Shown in pieces: positions 45,556 to 64,000 of a stretch of DNA of 64,000 nucleotides. This DNA comes from Vibrio spartinae. GTDB taxonomy: Bacteria; Pseudomonadota; Gammaproteobacteria; Enterobacterales; Vibrionaceae. Under the pieces are notes generated by a model. The model was not told where the DNA came from, ran no database searches, and was given only the letters and a program-made list of their open reading frames with translations. Position numbers and translations under genes: made by a program. The stretch covers positions 1,124,768 to 1,188,767 of the forward strand of contig NZ_AP024908.1 in assembly GCF_024347135.1 (NCBI RefSeq), read 5' to 3'. The stretch's first letter is position 1, and each line of letters opens with the position of its first letter.

Positions 45556-45592
45556 ATAACAGCCCGATTTACAATGTAAATCGGGCTGTTAT
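45556..45592. terminator. Perfect 18-bp inverted repeat between convergent genes, containing a parS2 site
   Basis: ATAACAGCCCGATTTACA and its reverse complement are separated by one base. It lies between the dehydrogenase and glgB stops. There is no T-run. The centre (45567-45581) is listed separately as a parS2 match. Confidence 0.85.
45567..45581. promoter_or_regulatory. parS2: parS2 centromere site (ParB2 binding)
   Basis: ATTTACAATGTAAAT matches NTTTACANTGTAAAN, the published consensus of Vibrio chromosome II parS sites, at every defined position. It is about 18 kb from the second match near the origin. Confidence 0.75.
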
Positions 45593-54494: not shown

Positions 54495-55096
54495 GATGTC
54501 ACCCCAACTAAATAAACGAATGTAAATACACAAATCCAGACGATATCAAGGAAGTGCCAGAACAAGCTTAGACAGCCAAATCGAGTTTCGAGCATGTCGG
54601 TCAGACCTTTGGTATTCAATTGCCAGAAACACACAAACAACCAAATCAAACCAAAGGTCACGTGAAGACCGTGGGTTCCAACCAGCGTAAAGAACGCAGA
54701 CAGGAACGCACTGTGATCAGGTCCATAACCTTCAACAATCAAATGATGGAATTCATAGATTTCCATCCCGATGAAGCCGACCCCAAACAGGAAGGTAATC
54801 ACCATCCATAACTTTAGGGCCCCGATCTGTTTGCGTTTCATCGCAATCATGCCAAAGCCAAAAGTAATACTACTTAGCAACAGCAACATGGTTTCGACAA
54901 AAACAAATGGTAACTCAAAGATTTCTTTACCGCTGGGACCACCAGCGGTTGCATTAGCCAGCACTGCATAAGTTGCAAATAACGATGCAAACAAAATGCA
55001 GTCACTCATCAGATAAATCCAGAAACCGAACAGCTTGTTACCACCGGTATCATGGTGGTGATCATGTGCGTGAGCTGCAACAGAATTAGCCTGCAT
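54491..55096 (-). CDS. cyoC: Cytochrome bo3 ubiquinol oxidase subunit III
   Basis: A 201-residue protein with five membrane helices. A His-rich N-terminus (AHAHDHHHD) precedes [34 protein letters not shown] and [17 protein letters not shown] are standard for subunit III. It overlaps cyoB by 11 bp and cyoD by 4 bp. Confidence 0.96.
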
Positions 55097-57110
55097 AGTT
55101 CACCTCCATATCATCTTTCGATTGAGACGCCGCCTTTGCTTTCGCAACTTCATCACGGTGTTCATCTTCAATCGCCTTGATTTCATCCACCTGAACATAA
55201 TAATCAACATCGTCGTTGAAACTATGCCAGATGCTCGTTACAACAATCCCGATAAAGCCAATAGCTGCCAGCCACCAGATATACCAGATCATCGCGAAAC
55301 CAAAGACCAGAGCACATGCAGAGACATACATACCAGTCGGTGTATTTTTCGGCATATGAATGGGTTCATATTCGACTTCTTTATCAAGCGAATGCTCACC
55401 CTTCTGTTTCTGATACCAGAAAGCATCGATCTCATCCACTTTCGGGATCACCGCAAAATTATAAAACGGTGGTGGAGAAGAAGTAGACCATTCCAGCGTC
55501 CGGCCATCCCACGGGTCACCCGTGACATCACGGTTTTGCTCACGATCTCTGATACTGACAACGATCTGAGTCACCTGACACACCACCCCGAGGGCTACAA
55601 TTGCAGTCCCGACCGCTGCTGTCGCAAGCAGTGGGAAGTAGTCAGCACTGATATCCTGACTCAAACGACGTGTCATGCCCATAAAGCCAAGTGCATACAA
55701 TGGCAGGAAGGCCAACAGGAAGCCAATCAGCCAACACCAGAAAGCCCGACGTCCCCATGCTTCATTAATCATGAAACCAGTCGCTTTCGGGAACCAGTAA
55801 GTAATTGCTGCAAAGCAGCCGAAGACCACACCACCGATAATGACGTTATGGAAATGCGCAACCAAGAAGACACTGTTGTGCAGCACAAAATCAGCACCGG
55901 GAACAGCCATCAGAACCCCAGTCATCCCACCAACACTGAATGTAATCAGGAATCCAATCGTCCACAGCATCGGTGACGTAAACTGAATACGTCCTTTGTA
56001 CATCGTAAACAGCCAGTTAAATATCTTCACCCCTGTCGGGATAGAGATAATCATGGTTGCAATCCCAAAGAAGGCGTTTACATTTGCACCGGCTCCCATG
56101 GTAAAGAAGTGATGCAGCCAAACAATAAAGGCCAGAATCGTGATGACAATCGTCGCCCAAACCAGAGACGTATAGCCGAATAGCTTCTTGCGCGAGAAGG
56201 TCGCGGTCACTTCAGAGAACACCCCGAAAATAGGCAGAATAAGGATATATACCTCAGGGTGACCCCATGCCCAAATCAGGTTGATATACATCATCATGTT
56301 CCCACCCATATCGTTGGTGAAGAAGTGGAAACCTAGATAACGGTCTAACGTCAATAGTGCGATCGAAACAGCAAGAATTGGGAATGAAATAATGATCAGA
56401 ATGTTGGCACACAATGAAGCCCAGGTGAAAACAGGCATCTTCATCAGTGGCATTCCCGGTGTACGCATCCGCATAATGGTGACAAAGAAGTTCACCCCAG
56501 TCAGCGTTGTCCCGACACCCGATATCTGTAGCGCCCAAATCCAGTAGTCAACACCGACCCCCGGACTAGCACCGATACCTGACAGTGGTGGATAAGCCAA
56601 CCAACCGGTACGGGCAAACTCACCCAAACCCAGTGATAGGTTGGTCAAAATCACCCCCACAACAAACAACCAAAAACTCAGGTTATTCAGATACGGGAAA
56701 GCGACGTCACGCGCACCAATCTGTAATGGCACAACAATGTTCATCAAACCGATAACGAGTGGCATTGCCACAAAGAAAATCATGATGACACCGTGAGCGG
56801 TAAAGATCTGATCATAGTGATGTGGCGGCAGATAACCGGCTTCACCCGCAGCAGAGAGCGCTTGCTGACTTCGCATCATCACCGCATCGGCAAAGCCACG
56901 GATGAGCATGACAAACGCGACAACAATGTACATGAAGCCTAATTTTTTGTGGTCTACCGAAGTAAACCATTCATTCCATAGATACTGCCATTTACCAAGA
57001 CGCGTTACCCAAATCACGACTGCCAAACCGACAACTGCGATGACAGAGAGGGTAATCATGATAATGGGCTCATGGTATGGAATGGAGTCCAGTGTTAATC
57101 TTCCAAACAT
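55086..57110 (-). CDS. cyoB: Cytochrome bo3 ubiquinol oxidase subunit I
   Basis: A 674-residue heme-copper oxidase subunit (E. coli CyoB 663), holding low-spin heme b, heme o3 and Cu[16 protein letters not shown] contains a heme b ligand, [14 protein letters not shown] the crosslinked His-Tyr, WLHHFFTMG two CuB histidines and [11 protein letters not shown] the heme ligands. ATG 57110 fits the family start [15 protein letters not shown]; a frame to 57128 would extend into cyoA. It pumps protons while reducing oxygen with ubiquinol. Confidence 0.97.
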
Positions 57111-57117
57111 AATCTCA

Positions 57118-58053
57118 TCACCCTTCATGCTCAGTCATCGAATGATGACCCATTGGTTTATCCATATCCATATCCAGTCCATCTCCCATGTGCATATTCA
57201 TACTACCTGGGAACTGGGTTACCACAGCGTTGAACAGGCCGTCCGGAATATGAGAATAATAAGTGACGGGAACATCGATGCTTGGCTTCGCTAAAGCACG
57301 ATAATCAGCGAAATCATGAATCTGCTGTTCAGAAGACTTCACTTTCTCAACCCATTGTTCGAAGCTGGCCATATCCGGTGTTGCCGTTGCAGTGAATTTC
57401 ATATGTGAGAAACCATCACCACTAAAGCTTGCGGCAATACCTTTATAATCCCCAGCATGATTGGCAATTAAATGCAGACGAGTCACCATACCGGGCATCG
57501 CATAAAGTTGGCTACCCAATCGAGGGATAAAGAAAGAGTTCATGATGTTATCTGAAGTCAGCTTGAACTTCACCGGAACATCTTTTGGAAATGCAACATA
57601 ATTCAGCGTTGCTATTTTCTGTTCCGGATAAATGAACAACCATTTCCAGTCAAGTGACACCACTTCAATTGTCATCGGTTTCATATCACTGACTAAAGGC
57701 TTAGAAGGTTCAAGATGGTGCGTTGAACGCCAAGTGATAGTCGCCAAAATGACGATAATAATGATTGGGATCGTCCAGACAACAAGCTCAATCTTTGTTG
57801 AATGGGACCATTCTGGTGTGTATTCTGCGTTCGAATTACTTGATCGATATTTATACGAGAAGTAGATCGTCATCAGTATCACAGGGATAACAACGATCAA
57901 CATCAGGAATAGAGCTGTAATGATCAACTCTTTTACCTGAACACCCACCTCTCCTTTGGGATCAAGTAGCGCAAACTTACACCCTGAGAGCATCAGCACT
58001 GTGAGTAACAGTCCGAGTCTCGATATGATGCTTTTATATCGTGAGGCTTCCAT
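57118..58053 (-). CDS. cyoA: Cytochrome bo3 ubiquinol oxidase subunit II
   Basis: A 311-residue lipoprotein (lipobox LSGC near residue 25), with two membrane helices (about 43-67 and 88-108) and a periplasmic cupredoxin domain lacking the CuA ligands, as in quinol oxidases. The tail beyond the cupredoxin domain is rich in His and Met ([21 protein letters not shown]), which might bind copper. First gene of cyoABCDE. Confidence 0.95.
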
Positions 58054-58571
58054 TTACTTGTACTTTCTCTTTTTGGCAGAGACCCTGATAACCGACACTT
58101 CCTTATCAAGACTCCGCAGTTGTTTTTAATAAGAGTATTTGAATCTGCAACAAATTATCCTTATCTGATACAAATCCACTTAACTCTACGAAATGATGAC
58201 ATTCCACATCCAGCTTATCGAAGAAGATAAATATATTTGTTACAAGAAAGAACACTTTGCTACATCCGACACATCATAGTAACAATACGTCGAGGGGCAC
58301 TATATTAAAGTGCAATCTTAAGTTACGCAAATCTGACGTTCATAAAAAGCAGATCCGCCACATCTACGAAATCAAAGACATAATCTATTGTTATCTATAT
58401 ACTTTTTAGAACATATTTCACTTTCTGCCAGACATTATCCGCAGCGGTTTTTTTTTTCACTATAATTTATGAACTCTATCACGGAATGCAATGCAATTTA
58501 TTTTATAAACCGAAGAATACTGAGCGCATGAAAAATCATGATTTGTGATACCAACCGAATCCGAAAGACAT
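58054..58571. promoter_or_regulatory. Upstream region of the cyo operon, no gene seen
   Basis: A 518-bp AT-rich stretch between cyoA and the YebC-like gene's terminator. It must hold the cyo promoter; I cannot point to a convincing ArcA or FNR site. No open frame with a ribosome binding site was found. Confidence 0.4.
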
Positions 58572-58607
58572 AAAAAAACGCCCCATGTCATATCAAGGGG
58601 CGTTTTG
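58572..58607. terminator. Terminator of the YebC-like gene
   Basis: AAAAAACGCCCC and GGGGCGTTTT with a 12-base loop, with A/T runs on both sides, so it can work in both directions; the minus-strand gene ends 34 bp away. Confidence 0.92.
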
Positions 58608-58641
58608 CAATCCGTTTTGTCATGAAAGTGAGAATGAGCGG

Positions 58642-59361
58642 CTACTCAATCTCCGCATTATGATAAACCTGTTGGACGTCATCGCTATCATCCAGCAGAT
58701 CAAGAAACTTCTGGAATTTCTCAGCATCTTCTCCGGCAATTTCAGTCCGGTTTTGTGGCACGAACGTAATCTCTTCCACATCCAAGGTGACGTCAGGGAA
58801 AGCCTCAGTCAACGCAGTCTTTGCTTTGAAGAATTCGGTGTGGGGTGCAAATACAGTCATCACACCATCTTCCAGCTCAATATCAGCTACATCAACATCA
58901 GCCATGACTAATGCTTCTAACACACTTTCTTCATCATCCCCCTGAAACTGGAATACAGCCTGATGATCGAACATATGCGCAACAGTCCCCGGACTACCAA
59001 TCTTTGCGCCTGTCTTCACAAAGCACTGCCGGACATCCTGAAAAGTTCGATTGCCGTTATCCGTTAAACAGTCAACAATCACACTGATACCACCGGGGCC
59101 AAACCCTTCATAACGAGCTGGCTGGTAATCTTCACCCGCTCCTCCCGAGGCTTTATCCAGCGCTTTGTCGATCACATGTCCGGGAACCTGATCTTTCTTC
59201 GCTTTAGTGATCAAGTGTCGCAAAGAAAGGTTGGTATCCGGATCGGCCCCTCCATTTTTTGCACACACATAAATCTCTTTGCCGTATTTGGAATAAACTT
59301 TAATCTTTGCGCCTTGACTCTTCGCCATGGAAGCTTTACGCACTTCAAAACTTCTTCCCAT
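58642..59361 (-). CDS. YebC/PmpR-family regulator, YeeN type
   Basis: A 239-residue protein close in length and start ([19 protein letters not shown]) to E. coli YeeN (238). Typical segments are [60 protein letters not shown] and DDVQQVYHN at the end. The family has been linked both to transcription control and to relief of ribosome stalling. Start chosen at ATG 59361. From memory, the V. cholerae gene in the same place beside rctB is also of this family. Confidence 0.9.
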
Positions 59362-59447
59362 CGGGATATTCTCTCTCATTAATTGAACGCGACGGATTGT
59401 AGAAAAAACACAGAACCATTTCAATTTCTGCCAGTTCAGGGAGCGGT

Positions 59448-59657
59448 TTACATCACACCCATGACCCTTTTATATTTATCCACTGATTGTTGAAAGCATG
59501 TCTGTTCATCGGTTGTTCGCAACGTTTCCTGATGCTGAGTAAATACTTCAGGCCCTGCCTTTCCTTGTTTCAGTTTCCAGACTAAAAAGGCTGCCTGCTT
59601 ATCCAACTCGATCCGATTTTTCTCTTCAGCACTCAATTCTGCAAGATTAAAAGACAT
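59448..59657 (-). CDS. Small conserved Vibrio protein (DUF3283-like)
   Basis: A 69-residue, highly charged, helical protein ([20 protein letters not shown] start, [20 protein letters not shown] middle). It resembles the DUF3283 family found in vibrios. GGCGGGTG lies before the ATG at 59657; an upstream frame to 59708 is not supported. Function unknown. Confidence 0.72.
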
Positions 59658-59753
59658 AAAATCACCCGCCATCTGTAAACAAGTTATGCAATATACCACA
59701 GGAATCAAGAAAATTAAGCGCTAACTGAGGTTCGTACCAGCCGCTCTCATGCA

Positions 59754-59786
59754 GAAAAAAAAGGGCAGCTAAGCTGCCCCTTTTTA
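59754..59786. terminator. Terminator of the PA3496-like gene
   Basis: AAAAAAAA-GGGCAGCT-A-AGCTGCCC-CTTTTT: strong stem with T-runs for both strands, 14 bp from the stop of the minus-strand gene. Confidence 0.92.
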
Positions 59787-59799
59787 TCCAATATAAAAC

Positions 59800-59997
59800 T
59801 TAATGAAGTAAGCCAAGTTCCCTAGCTTCTTCAAGCGTTAAACCACTTTCACGAATTTCTCTCATCACTTCAATCCGGCGTCGGGCTTCGGCTGACTTGA
59901 GGGTTTTCGTCGGTTTTTGCAATTCAACTTCGTCCGTGAAGTCCCATTTATTTGCGATATTCGTCATTTCATCATGGTCGATTGAATTGATAGACAT
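59800..59997 (-). CDS. Small PA3496-like protein
   Basis: A 65-residue protein with a C-terminal motif SAEARRRIEVMREIRESGLT that fits the PA3496 family of short bacterial proteins, sometimes linked to envelope integrity. The ATG at 59997 has a strong GGAGGTGG site. The 5' end appears partly duplicated about 300 bp upstream (60270-60315). Confidence 0.72.
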   Translation of the reverse strand: MSINSIDHDEMTNIANKWDFTDEVELQKPTKTLKSAEARRRIEVMREIRESGLTLEEARELGLLH

Positions 59998-60241
59998 AAA
60001 CCACCTCCGGACAAACCATGTTAGGGACACGTATTCTATAGCGAAGCTGAAAAACCTTGTTAAGCAAAATTATCCAAGATTGTGATAATGGCTATAGTTC
60101 TGTAAAAATATTGATAGATGTAAAAATAAAATTTTGCGTCTATTTTAACAGCGCTGTATTTTTAAAAGATTGCTCTCGATTTTTTGCTTAACTCATTCCC
60201 CCGACTCTCCTCGCTCGTTTTCTCTGATTCACATCATATAC

Positions 60242-60254
60242 GGAACAATGATCA
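60242..60254 (+). promoter_or_regulatory. RctB long-site motif downstream of rctB
   Basis: GGAACAATGATCA (continuing AAGG) is identical over 16 bases to 63325-63340 in the origin region. It lies about 300 bp beyond the rctB stop, separate from the main origin cluster, and may be an extra RctB-binding site. Confidence 0.65.
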
Positions 60255-60269
60255 AGGGTGTGATTGCAT

Positions 60270-60315
60270 TCATGAAGAGATTCGTCATGGTCGATTGATT
60301 TGATGGCCGAGCTGA
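60270..60315 (-). pseudogene. Decayed partial copy of the PA3496-like gene start
   Basis: On the minus strand the codons read IKSIDHDE, against INSIDHDE in the intact gene at 59800-59997; TCATGGTCGATTGATTTGAT differs from the gene by one base in 20. Similarity ends after this block. Confidence 0.5.
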
Positions 60316-60335
60316 TGTACTCACTTTCTGACAGG

Positions 60336-60364
60336 CAAAAAAAAGCGAGCATGGGGTGCTCGCG
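60336..60364 (-). terminator. Terminator of rctB
   Basis: GCGAGCA-TGGGG-TGCTCGC preceded on the plus strand by AAAAAAAA, which gives a strong T-run for minus-strand transcripts. Confidence 0.9.
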
Positions 60365-60551
60365 AAAATGCTAAGTATGAATATAACAACATGAACCTAA
60401 CCAATGACATCGGTAGGATATCGGTTGTCTTTCGAGGTAGAGAATAGCGGTCTCAACACCCGCTTCTGTCAGGAAGATGTCAGAGCTGTGCAAAGACAAT
60501 CAGGGTTTGTAACCTTGGTTCCATTTTACCGTTCGCCAGTCTTTAAATGCT

Positions 60552-62528
60552 CTAGATACCAATTGCCACTTCATCAAGCACTAAAAACACCGACTCGTCT
60601 AAATGCCCTTCACTAATCTGTTTACACACTTTACGCCGAACCGCCAATCCTGAGATCAATCGTTCAATTGACAAATGTTTATTACGACTACGGGAATTAT
60701 ACAACTCAATGGTCTTGCTCAGAATCTCGTAAGAGAGCACCGTATCACTGACCCTTAGCCAATCGAGCTTATCAATCAACTCCTGACACTCTTCTCGGAT
60801 TAATGATGGTGAGTGTCCGGTCATCGCAGATAAAGCGCTTATACTGCGTTCCAGAGCCTCTCGTGAGGTATATTTTGATAAGGTGATCGTAATCTCATCA
60901 GCATTGATCTCTACCAGATGTTTACGTAACTTGACCCGGCGGCCTAAATTGCCTCTGGGAGATGGTGCTTTACGTTGGATAGGTTCAAATTCCCCATCAA
61001 TAATTGAAGCGAGTTCTTCCAGTTTCTGCTTAGAGACCATCTCATGGCGAAGTGGATTGGGTAACGTCGGTGCCATATTGCGTTTTCCAGCATTGGTTGT
61101 TCTCGCTCTAGAGAAACGCAACACCTCTTCAACATCACATTTAATGTCGACTTCATAATCCGAAATCTTGCCTTTGGTATGAATGGAACGGACAGAAAGA
61201 TGATATCCCCATAGATTGACGACAAATAGATCATCATCCCCTTTCCCTTCGGATAAACGCCGCAACTCCCGGATCAGATCCATCGAAAAACGTCGCCATT
61301 CAATATTACGGGCCAATTTCTGATTCAGCTCAGATAACAGCATGGTTTCATGATGCCGACGGGACATCCGGCTCCGAAAATAAGAATAGAGTTGGAATAC
61401 CAGCGTATGCTGTTTCAGAATCTCTGGTGGAAACAGGAAAAAGTAATCCCGCGTCAGCAGTTCTTCATAAAATGAAGGTTCCCAAACCAGAATATAGAGA
61501 TTGGGTTTGATCTTAATCTCGCCATCGGCGCCTTCAACTGGGGCTTCTTCTGAAGCCGTGATCGTTCGGGCCAAAAAGCGGAAACGATCACTTTTAAATC
61601 CTTCCGGCATATTTTCACTGAGCCAACGACCGGTGAGTTCATGGAGCTGAAAGTCAGTAAATTCAATGCGATCAATACTGTCCCGAATAGAATCTCTCGC
61701 CGGCCCGCTATCCTTCTTGCCCCGAAGTGACAAGATATCTGTGATATACAGCGGTGTCTTATTCGGAATTTGTTTGGCGTTCAGATGATATTCTTCACGC
61801 TGATGATCATGGTATTGAACCGTTAACGTAAACAGGGCAAACAGCGTCATCAGATCATCAACAGTCATAATATTTTTGGATGATCTTGTTTCGATCACAG
61901 CGCGAGTCCCAGAAATTGAGACCATTGATTTCTGGTAACTCTTACGTGTTCTTGGCGGTGCCAATGCTTGATCGATAATGCCCGCCCAATTGGTCGGTGA
62001 GACCACAAATTGATCAGCTTCATCTTTGATTGCAGGGGGCGTATTTAATCCATATTCATTTAACAGGCGCTGATTCACTTGTGTTTGTGCCAGCGCTTTT
62101 GAGCGTTTTTGTTTCTCTGATTGTTTTACCGATTCGGTAATCAGGCTGGTGGCTCCCAATGATGAGATCAACTGACTGGGATTAATAAACTTATGCAGCA
62201 TTGTTTTGCCTGCCAAACCTTCCTCGAACCGAACAGGGATTTGTTCAAAGAGGCCAATACTGACAGCTGCGCGTAATCGCTGTTGAATTGCGGCTCTGGT
62301 TAACTGTCCATCAGCAGCTTCAATCAACTCTGTTGTTGAAACTAAGCCATCCTTACTACTCATGCCTTTTAGAGAGACTAAATTCAGTAGTTCAATGATG
62401 CTTCTGGTCACCCCTTTAAAGTGCTGATACTGTTCTATCCAGTTGATCGATGCTTCCGATACTTGAAAGAGATGTCCATCTTTATGATTTCTGGGAGCTT
62501 TGATTAATATTTTTTCGTGGGTGCTCAT
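60552..62528 (-). CDS. rctB: Chromosome II replication initiator RctB
   Basis: A 658-residue protein, the same length as V. cholerae RctB, with the family start KAPRNHKDGHLFQVSEASIN and the strongly conserved block GLVSTTELIEAADGQLTRAA followed by IQQRLRAAVSIGLFEQIPVRFEEGLAGKTMLHKF. RctB is specific to Vibrionaceae; it binds 12-mer iterons and longer regulatory sites at oriCII, melts the origin, and represses its own promoter. Central winged-helix domains resemble plasmid Rep proteins. ATG 62528 has AGGA just upstream, rather than ATG 62540. Its upstream region is the origin itself. Confidence 0.98.
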   Translation of the reverse strand: MSTHEKILIKAPRNHKDGHLFQVSEASINWIEQYQHFKGVTRSIIELLNLVSLKGMSSKDGLVSTTELIEAADGQLTRAAIQQRLRAAVSIGLFEQIPVRFEEGLAGKTMLHKFINPSQLISSLGATSLITESVKQSEKQKRSKALAQTQVNQRLLNEYGLNTPPAIKDEADQFVVSPTNWAGIIDQALAPPRTRKSYQKSMVSISGTRAVIETRSSKNIMTVDDLMTLFALFTLTVQYHDHQREEYHLNAKQIPNKTPLYITDILSLRGKKDSGPARDSIRDSIDRIEFTDFQLHELTGRWLSENMPEGFKSDRFRFLARTITASEEAPVEGADGEIKIKPNLYILVWEPSFYEELLTRDYFFLFPPEILKQHTLVFQLYSYFRSRMSRRHHETMLLSELNQKLARNIEWRRFSMDLIRELRRLSEGKGDDDLFVVNLWGYHLSVRSIHTKGKISDYEVDIKCDVEEVLRFSRARTTNAGKRNMAPTLPNPLRHEMVSKQKLEELASIIDGEFEPIQRKAPSPRGNLGRRVKLRKHLVEINADEITITLSKYTSREALERSISALSAMTGHSPSLIREECQELIDKLDWLRVSDTVLSYEILSKTIELYNSRSRNKHLSIERLISGLAVRRKVCKQISEGHLDESVFLVLDEVAIGI

Positions 62529-62576
62529 ATTCCTGTCCATATCACATTTGATGTAATATTGATATTTTTCCGAGCT

Positions 62577-62735
62577 TATAGAAAAAGATTCTATAAATAA
62601 AGAAAAAAATTATTGCTCTTAAAAACTGATCTTTATGATTATTACTGATCTTAAATGTTTATATGATCTTATGATCTGGGCAAGAAAATGCTTGTAATCA
62701 ATTGTAATAAAACAATATTTTTATTTGGTTTCTGA
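62577..62735. other. AT-rich unwinding region (DUE) of oriCII
   Basis: A very AT-rich segment between rctB and the iterons with four TGATCT sequences (62627, 62646, 62664, 62672) and extra ATCA triplets. Position and composition match the DNA unwinding element; each GATC is also a Dam site. The rctB promoter must lie here too. Confidence 0.65.
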
Positions 62736-62739
62736 AAGC

Positions 62740-62860
62740 ATGATCATGGCTGGTCAGGAACGATGATCAATTAGATATTGAAAGCATGATCATTAATCGA
62801 CTGAAGCATGATCATTTGTATTTCGGAATCATGATCATTATCTTTTTTGAAGCATGATCA
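62740..62860 (+). repeat. oriCII iteron array: six RctB 12-mer sites
   Basis: ATGATCA begins at 62740, 62763, 62786, 62808, 62831 and 62854, with steps of 23, 23, 22, 23 and 23 bp, that is two helical turns. Five have the form CATGATCA. This regular array of six, each with a Dam site, corresponds to the minimal origin of chromosome II. The second copy is embedded in GGAACGATGATCA (62757-62769), a long-site variant that may serve rctB autoregulation. Confidence 0.92.
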
Positions 62861-62875
62861 AGATGGATACACAAC

Positions 62876-62884
62876 TTATCCACA
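62876..62884 (+). promoter_or_regulatory. DnaA box of oriCII
   Basis: TTATCCACA, the perfect DnaA consensus, lies 16 bp after the last iteron. A single DnaA box is expected in this origin type. Confidence 0.85.
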
Positions 62885-62950
62885 TGCTTGATCTGCTGGT
62901 TATTATTCGTCAGATGATATTTTGCTTTAATTCTGGACAACCCCGTAAGC

Positions 62951-63080
62951 ATGATCAAGGTGTCTTGTTTCTCCCTTCCCTTCTCTGACGATTTTGCTGA
63001 CTTTTGGGGAATCAAAAGACACATTTTTTTGGGAGATGACTCGATATATGTCACGTTCAGTCGTCACGTAAGCATGATCA
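62951..63080 (+). promoter_or_regulatory. Two separate RctB 12-mer sites
   Basis: AGCATGATCAAGG occurs at about 62949-62961 and 63072-63084 (ATGATCA at 62951 and 63074). They lie outside the regular array, in the region that in V. cholerae carries negative control sites. Confidence 0.7.
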
Positions 63081-63222
63081 AGGATGATTAGGGCCTACTT
63101 TCCTGAAAGTCTGTCATTTCAATTTAGCGACCAATCTAAATAAATACGACGGATCCCCCAGTTGAATTGACACCTTCCGTAGTTATAGCAAGAAAACTCA
63201 TGCTTCCGAGATAAATTATTCT

Positions 63223-63363
63223 TGATCATTGTTCCGACTATTTGATCATAAGATCATAAATGAATTCACTGAATTTACATGACTCATATCCCTTGATCAT
63301 GCTTCTATTTTTTCTCTGGCTCTTGGAACAATGATCAAGGTGTTGTGCCATGATCATTGTTCC
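63223..63363. promoter_or_regulatory. Cluster of long RctB regulatory sites (39-mer type) and an inverted 12-mer
   Basis: GGAACAATGATCA occurs at 63223-63235 (minus), 63325-63337 (plus) and 63351-63363 (minus), the last two facing each other. An inverted 12-mer (GCATGATCAAGG on the minus strand) is at 63291-63302. In V. cholerae the longer sites inhibit initiation through RctB handcuffing; the same role is inferred. Confidence 0.75.
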
Positions 63364-64000
63364 GATGGGTTGCTTACCGTTTTATTGTCCATCTGTTGTG
63401 TGATTCATTTGATTAAATGACGATTTACGACTGATATTTTTCGTTATTCTGGCATTTCTGCTGTTTTTTTTGACAGAATAAAACTAATTATTGATGAATA
63501 AGTGCCCTTTTTAAGGGATTCGGCTTGCAAGATATTCGGATTTTCAGCATCTTAGCGAAAAGAAACGTATAAAATGTTCGCAATTAATACTGATGATAGC
63601 AGTTTGGAAATATCGTATGCAGTTGAAATCACAATTACCGTAAGTATCGCGCATCTTTCAATCGTTCCGGTATCGTGATTGATGGTCATCGATGTGTATC
63701 ACGGTCTATTGTTTTGGTAACCTCATCATCCTGGATATTATTCTCCTTATAGAGGAAGCTGTTCATTTTGATAGGAAGAATGAAATTTACAATGTAAAAT
63801 GTGACAATGTAACACTTTTATGAAATGTTGTTTTTAAGGTAGAGATGAATCAATTTTTTGATGTGAATTTTCATATTTTTCATTAAATCGTCTCTTAGTA
63901 GACACTTAACTGTGATATTAATCTAAAATTGATCGTACACCTTTTTATTGTCAACAAATAAAATTGCTGTACAATGGCGTTATGTCACTCATTATGGATC
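63364..64000. other. Origin flank (rctA-like region) without recognisable gene
   Basis: AT-rich sequence to the window edge. No frame of useful length with a ribosome binding site is seen. In V. cholerae this side holds the transcribed but poorly conserved rctA and then parAB2, which would lie beyond the window. It contains one parS2 match at 63785. Confidence 0.5.
63785..63799. promoter_or_regulatory. parS2: parS2 centromere site near oriCII
   Basis: ATTTACAATGTAAAA fits NTTTACANTGTAAAN exactly. Its location beside the origin is where chromosome II ParB2 sites are concentrated. Confidence 0.8.

Follow-up and report, generated by a model that had tools for sequence, protein, structure and literature searches.

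The region at 62511-63798 of the window (the whole stretch of DNA that was analysed, 64,000 bases) is almost certainly ori2 (oriCII), the origin of chromosome II of a Vibrio close to V. ruber, and its elements follow the arrangement of the V. cholerae origin. The origin is ordinary in kind, one more ori2, and its novelty lies in small departures. The window is the 64,000-base end of contig C2 (1,188,767 bp), one of the two contigs of a 5,192,394-bp genome. A sequence-only reading had taken the locus for a Vibrio oriCII, an identification now backed by RctB, the iteron array, the DnaA box, the unwinding region, the 39-mers, parS2, parAB2, crtS, GC skew and a dif-like site. The features located, in their order along the window, were as follows.

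45568..45580, no strand: second parS2-like site in the window (parS2 pattern)
60242..60257, plus strand: extra iteron-like site GGAACAATGATCAAGG, in the gap after rctB (iteron profile)
60552..62528, minus strand: rctB, chromosome II initiator (Pfam and PDB chain matches; start from sequence and alignment)
62542..62571, minus strand: 29-mer position, diverged operator of the rctB promoter, CATCAAATG (most loci CGGnnnnTG)
62577..62733, no strand: A+T-rich unwinding region (A+T content)
62627..62677, minus strand: ATCA repeats of the unwinding region, five of the usual six, the third being AACA
62734..62863, plus strand: six-iteron array, ATGATCA at 62740, 62763, 62786, 62808, 62831 and 62854
62876..62884, plus strand: DnaA box TTATCCACA, 15 bp after the last ATGATCA
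62945..62960, plus strand: ori2-inc iteron GTAAGCATGATCAAGG (iteron profile)
63068..63083, plus strand: ori2-inc iteron GTAAGCATGATCAAGG (iteron profile)
63168..63207, minus strand: central 39-mer (GGAAGCATG ... TACGGAAGGTGTCA), without the ParB2 half-site TGTAAA
63220..63235, minus strand: ori2-inc iteron GGAACAATGATCAAGA (iteron profile), containing GGAACAATGATCA at 63223-63235
63291..63306, minus strand: ori2-inc iteron AGAAGCATGATCAAGG (iteron profile)
63325..63340, plus strand: ori2-inc iteron GGAACAATGATCAAGG (iteron profile), containing GGAACAATGATCA at 63325-63337
63348..63363, minus strand: ori2-inc iteron GGAACAATGATCATGG (iteron profile), containing GGAACAATGATCA at 63351-63363
63629..63668, minus strand: outer 39-mer (pattern GGAAnnAT...TACGG...TG)
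63786..63798, no strand: parS2-like site TTTACAATGTAAA beside the outer 39-mer

Core origin and its replicon

The product of rctB matched the Pfam models RctB_central (730 bits) and HTH_55, the RctB helix-turn-helix domain, and by PDB sequence match the solved RctB chains 5ubf, 8rv3, 5ube and 5ubd, together with 5tbf, which is filed under another molecule name. The likely start is the ATG at 62528, since AGGA stands before it, while the longer ORF, starting at 62540, lacks a site of this kind. Among the best 80 of 185 RctB matches the nearest named relatives were Vibrio sp. MEBiC08052 and V. ruber DSM 16370 (98 % identical each), which we take to be members of the gazogenes group. Close to the origin, at 55086-57128, is a gene for cytochrome oxidase subunit I (Pfam COX1).

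The last base of the window joins C2:1, the start of a ParA-type gene that is followed by a ParB-family gene. The first protein across this join matched the solved ParA-type ATPase 7npd over its full length; the second matched a ParB family model and had no match in Pfam. Position is the basis for naming the two genes parA2 and parB2. The junction between contig end and parA2 is unbroken in Vibrio sp. MEBiC08052, with GGATA there and GGATC here. All 12 GC skew samples of the 1.19-Mb replicon between C2 0 and 0.59 Mb were positive and all 13 between 0.60 and 1.19 Mb negative, with the cumulative minimum near window position 62000, and a dif-like site lies half-way round the replicon at C2:594766, without mismatch to the dif motif. 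Skew and dif-like site agree with replication starting at this predicted origin. The pattern TTTACANTGTAAA, representing parS2, occurred ten times in the genome (nine on C2, one on C1), compared with once for a reversed control pattern.

The array steps between ATGATCA starts are 23, 23, 22, 23 and 23 bp, and the six sites and their 22-23 bp spacing were as the sequence-only reading had given them. In the last 4 kb six TGATCA sites follow one another at 20-25 bp spacing, against runs of at most two in 2,000 dinucleotide shuffles, so that the array cannot be chance. The DnaA box, the only TTATMCACA match in the window, had also been recognized, but 16 bp from the array instead of the 15 bp measured here. 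On the rctB side an AT-rich region with TGATCT repeats had been proposed and was readily located: 62577-62735 is 78.6 % A+T compared with 54.4 % for the window, and TGATCT stands at 62627, 62646, 62664 and 62672, these being ATCA repeats read on the opposite strand. Such repeats have a role in the V. cholerae unwinding region (PMC11711613, in excerpt). Loss of the third repeat as a clade-specific trait was dropped, that repeat being missing also in 8 of 76 non-clade loci. GATC occurs 20 times in the interval 62577-63380, where the rate of the whole window predicts 4.3. Near the array no site fits the IHF consensus exactly, and one, at 62725, fits it with a single mismatch. There was no Rfam match at gathering scores in 58000-64000.

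By analogy with V. cholerae, from which every binding and timing step is drawn, RctB would bind the six Dam-methylated iterons, open the A+T-rich region toward rctB and hold its ATCA repeats, and RctB and DnaA at the single box would help to load the helicase. The two 39-mers (in V. cholerae also the rctB-promoter 29-mer) would keep the origin off through RctB bridging until crtS on chromosome I had been copied, with RctB presumably tuned by ParB2 and spare iterons. It is exceedingly improbable that the TGATCA array arose by chance or is a repeat of some other kind, such as a titration locus. V. cholerae does have a region lacking origin activity in which two iterons occur with a poor DnaA box (PMC3937223, in excerpt). 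Here, however, no shuffle placed more than two sites in a row; rctB, the DnaA box, the unwinding region, parAB2 and the skew switch all coincide at this locus; and the titration-like cluster of this genome lies apart from the six-iteron array, at C2:14-20 kb.

Regulatory sites and comparison with other ori2 loci

Beyond the DnaA box, the 12-mers reported at 62951 and 63074 and the inverted one at 63294 were all present in the sequence. So were the longer GGAACAATGATCA sites on the far side, but they do not correspond to the 39-mers, the longer regulatory sites known from V. cholerae. Their assignment as inhibitory 39-mers was rejected: they have a Dam site and fit the iteron profile, with scores of 22.6-23.1 against 17.1-24.3 for the array iterons, a fit that is partly by construction, the profile being made from TGATCA sites of other species, outer ones included. 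As described in the available part of PMC6090056, 39-mers carry no Dam site, and the GGAACAATGATCA sites were therefore grouped with the iterons.

Bounds of 62577..63380 had been given for a complete origin; they miss the outer 39-mer, the rctB operator (29-mer) and parS2, and the central 39-mer, which falls inside them, had been passed over. Among 81 distinct loci (after removal of three duplicate rows), 70 had a central and 78 an outer 39-mer of the form GGAAnnAT...TACGG...TG. Loss of TGTAAA from the central 39-mer was dropped as a clade-specific trait, the half-site being present in just 18 of 70 central 39-mers. The V. cholerae 39-mer consists of two 9-bp boxes and a spacer, both boxes being required for RctB binding (PMC3688505, in part). 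Iterons and 39-mers share a left end, GGAA, two variable bases and AT; the two are described as without similarity in a review (PMC6090056, in excerpt), and an iteron nested in a 39-mer is on record at one published V. cholerae site (excerpt of PMC3937223). This genome has such a nested site at C2:16767-16803, kept in genome G131.

An iteron-like site within about 650 bp after rctB, as at 60242..60257 here, was found in 73 of 80 loci compared with 27 of 537 control windows further on; no mention of it was found in the portions of the literature covered, and it may already be known. High-scoring iteron-like sites at C2:14019, 16788 and 19889 (21.6-24.7) had counterparts in G131. Elsewhere on C2 a 400-kb sample gave no score above 15.4, and window 1-59900 held no site above threshold.

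Eighty named loci were fetched by RctB (best 80 of 185), 77 of them with at least 900 bases upstream, which with the window gave 78; L045, L087 and L115 were dropped from the array comparison. Six phased iterons were present in 78/78 loci, with the exact 23-23-22-23-23 steps in 69, and the DnaA box stood 15 bp from the array in 76 of the 78, at 16 bp in L100 and without an exact match in L112. The array starts 605 bp from rctB in V. hepatarius E3R11 (L111) and 427 bp in V. tetraodonis (L112), the usual distance being ~325 bp. The 599-kb record of Vibrio sp. HDW18 labelled 'plasmid p_unnamed1' (L051) has rctB as well as an ori2 in which array, DnaA box and both 39-mers are present, and is a small chromosome II. 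Two RctB matches, second copies or split genes, were seen in 14 of 227 genomes (G004, G026, G038, G058, G072, G087, G094, G116, G129, G146, G151, G174, G196 and G224).

V. mimicus and V. metoecus stood in for V. cholerae among the loci, facts on V. cholerae itself being taken from papers. Compared with its published ori2, which was not aligned, the present origin has the same rctB, 29-mer position, ATCA unwinding region, six head-to-tail iterons, single DnaA box, inc iterons, two 39-mers, parS2, distal iterons, one iteron nested in a 39-mer and crtS on chromosome I. It differs in a 29-mer without TACGG, the lost third ATCA repeat, a central 39-mer without TGTAAA, a crtS relatively far from ter1 and a titration-like cluster 14-20 kb from the origin, compared with about 40 kb or more in V. 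cholerae. V. ruber DSM 16370 (L037) and MEBiC08052 (L036) share the array, DnaA box, 39-mers and deviant 29-mer letter for letter, whilst differing in iteron spacer letters and in having one GGAACAATGATCA form in the origin region instead of three. The origins of plasmids P1 and F are likewise iteron-based with a plasmid-type initiator, whereas the Vibrio system is marked by Dam-dependent RctB iterons, 39-mers and crtS licensing (PMC8826520 and PMC6090056, both in excerpt).

The changed rctB operator

At the 29-mer of the rctB promoter TACGG was kept in 73 of 83 loci and absent in 10, six of which belong to this clade, where the site reads GGAAAAATATCAATATTACATCAAATGTGA throughout. The ori2 family thus varies at that site, so TACGG in the 29-mer was not counted as defining for ori2, and the other ori2 features stand. 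Of 227 Vibrio genomes, 6 had an exact copy of a 24-base piece taken from the 3' part of the 29-mer and its flank. Across the six clade genomes 30/30 bases of the 29-mer were invariant, compared with 49/55, 44/51, 29/56, 105/130 and 20/37 bases (52-89 %) in five neighbouring ori2-min parts. TACGG was absent in other ways from V. salinus, V. litoralis, Vibrio sp. CK2-1 and V. rumoiensis. The loci of other Vibrio lineages without it include L052, L099, L105 and L114; in L099, L105 and L114 no central 39-mer was found and two ATCA repeats are missing. In a quick RctB tree ten rows grouped no more than weakly (support 75), three of them with TACGG retained, and the tree does not decide between a single and a repeated rise of the changed 29-mer.

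In V. cholerae the 29-mer represses rctB and joins in inhibitory bridging (PMC11711613, in part). As the site here is without TACGG, this step is probably altered in the clade, and with the third ATCA repeat and the ParB2 half-site also changed, control of the origin need not equal that of V. cholerae. One reading is that the 29-mer has drifted into a weak site, leaving RctB autorepression and the bridge between 29-mer and 39-mer weak and ori2 less inhibited, which is possible at rather less than an even chance. It accords with the absence from all six clade genomes of a motif kept in most loci, with the need of V. cholerae RctB for both 39-mer boxes (PMC3688505, in excerpt) and with the 29-mer change C21>A, which lets V. 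cholerae RctB reach the iterons (excerpt of PMC11711613); a site invariant at every base beside parts at 52-89 %, however, looks selected rather than decayed. That same invariance argues for a retuned 29-mer, still bound by the RctB of the clade or by another factor, with TTACATCnAATG in place of the TTACGG box, as does the occurrence of TTTACATCCAATG at the same place in V. litoralis and Vibrio sp. CK2-1. The retuned operator comes close to an even chance. Against it, TACGG is retained in both 39-mers of the clade, so that RctB presumably still reads that box, and the promoter or rctB leader may account for part of the invariance. A clade in which the 29-mer has been rewritten and then kept base for base is a natural test of what the 29-mer is for.

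crtS and replication timing

The crtS pattern was taken from PMC5854411 (in excerpt). It had one match in the genome, at C1:835172-835196, with an EngA-type GTPase gene on one side and xseA on the other, and with up to three mismatches was found in at least 225 of 227 Vibrio genomes. Timing excess was defined as the distance from crtS to ter1 (midpoint) minus half of chromosome II, with the gidA start assumed to represent ori1. The set comprised the 37 genomes, a non-random sample, that had crtS, gidA and both chromosome lengths among the matches listed. Outside it were G013, G023, G058, G080, G099 and G110, whose chromosome lengths were available but which had no gidA place among the matches listed, and also G098, G085 and G154; for G018 and G077 the rctB contig, which was not among the matches listed, was assumed to be C2.

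The timing excess of this genome, 0.572 Mb, was the largest of the 37 compared; clade mates had 0.419, 0.384 and 0.270 Mb, and the 33 others a mean of 0.133 Mb (SD 0.103, range -0.047 to 0.362). Measured by dif-like sites the excess was 0.487 Mb, the largest of eight, followed by G060 (0.372) and G033 (0.319); G061 and G131 had no chromosome I dif-like site within three mismatches. From this excess, chromosome II may finish early. Several points stand against an early finish: as a share of the arm the crtS position is not unusual (0.417-0.469 for the clade, a mean of 0.431 for the rest), the excess as a rule tracks the ratio of chromosome sizes (rank correlation 0.83), G061 ranks only eighth, the 4.0-Mb chromosome I may have been enlarged recently, and delays vary in the available part of PMC5854411.

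It is unlikely that the V. ruber group has a variant licensing, in which a retuned 29-mer alters the RctB off-state and crtS, relative to ter1, is copied early enough for chromosome II either to be done well ahead of chromosome I or to delay far longer once crtS has been duplicated. If true, it would break the termination synchrony described for the Vibrionaceae. A search for V. ruber together with crtS found no literature. The genome with the largest crtS-to-ter1 excess of 37 offers a test of whether synchronous termination is really enforced.

In G098 a single 3.24-Mb contig (C1; L270) carries gidA, crtS, two dif-like sites (one of them dif1-like), parB2, and rctB with a phased TGATCA array. 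That genome has no other rctB match, its 1.20-Mb contig having none, and the record represents either a natural fusion of both chromosomes near ter1 or an assembly error.
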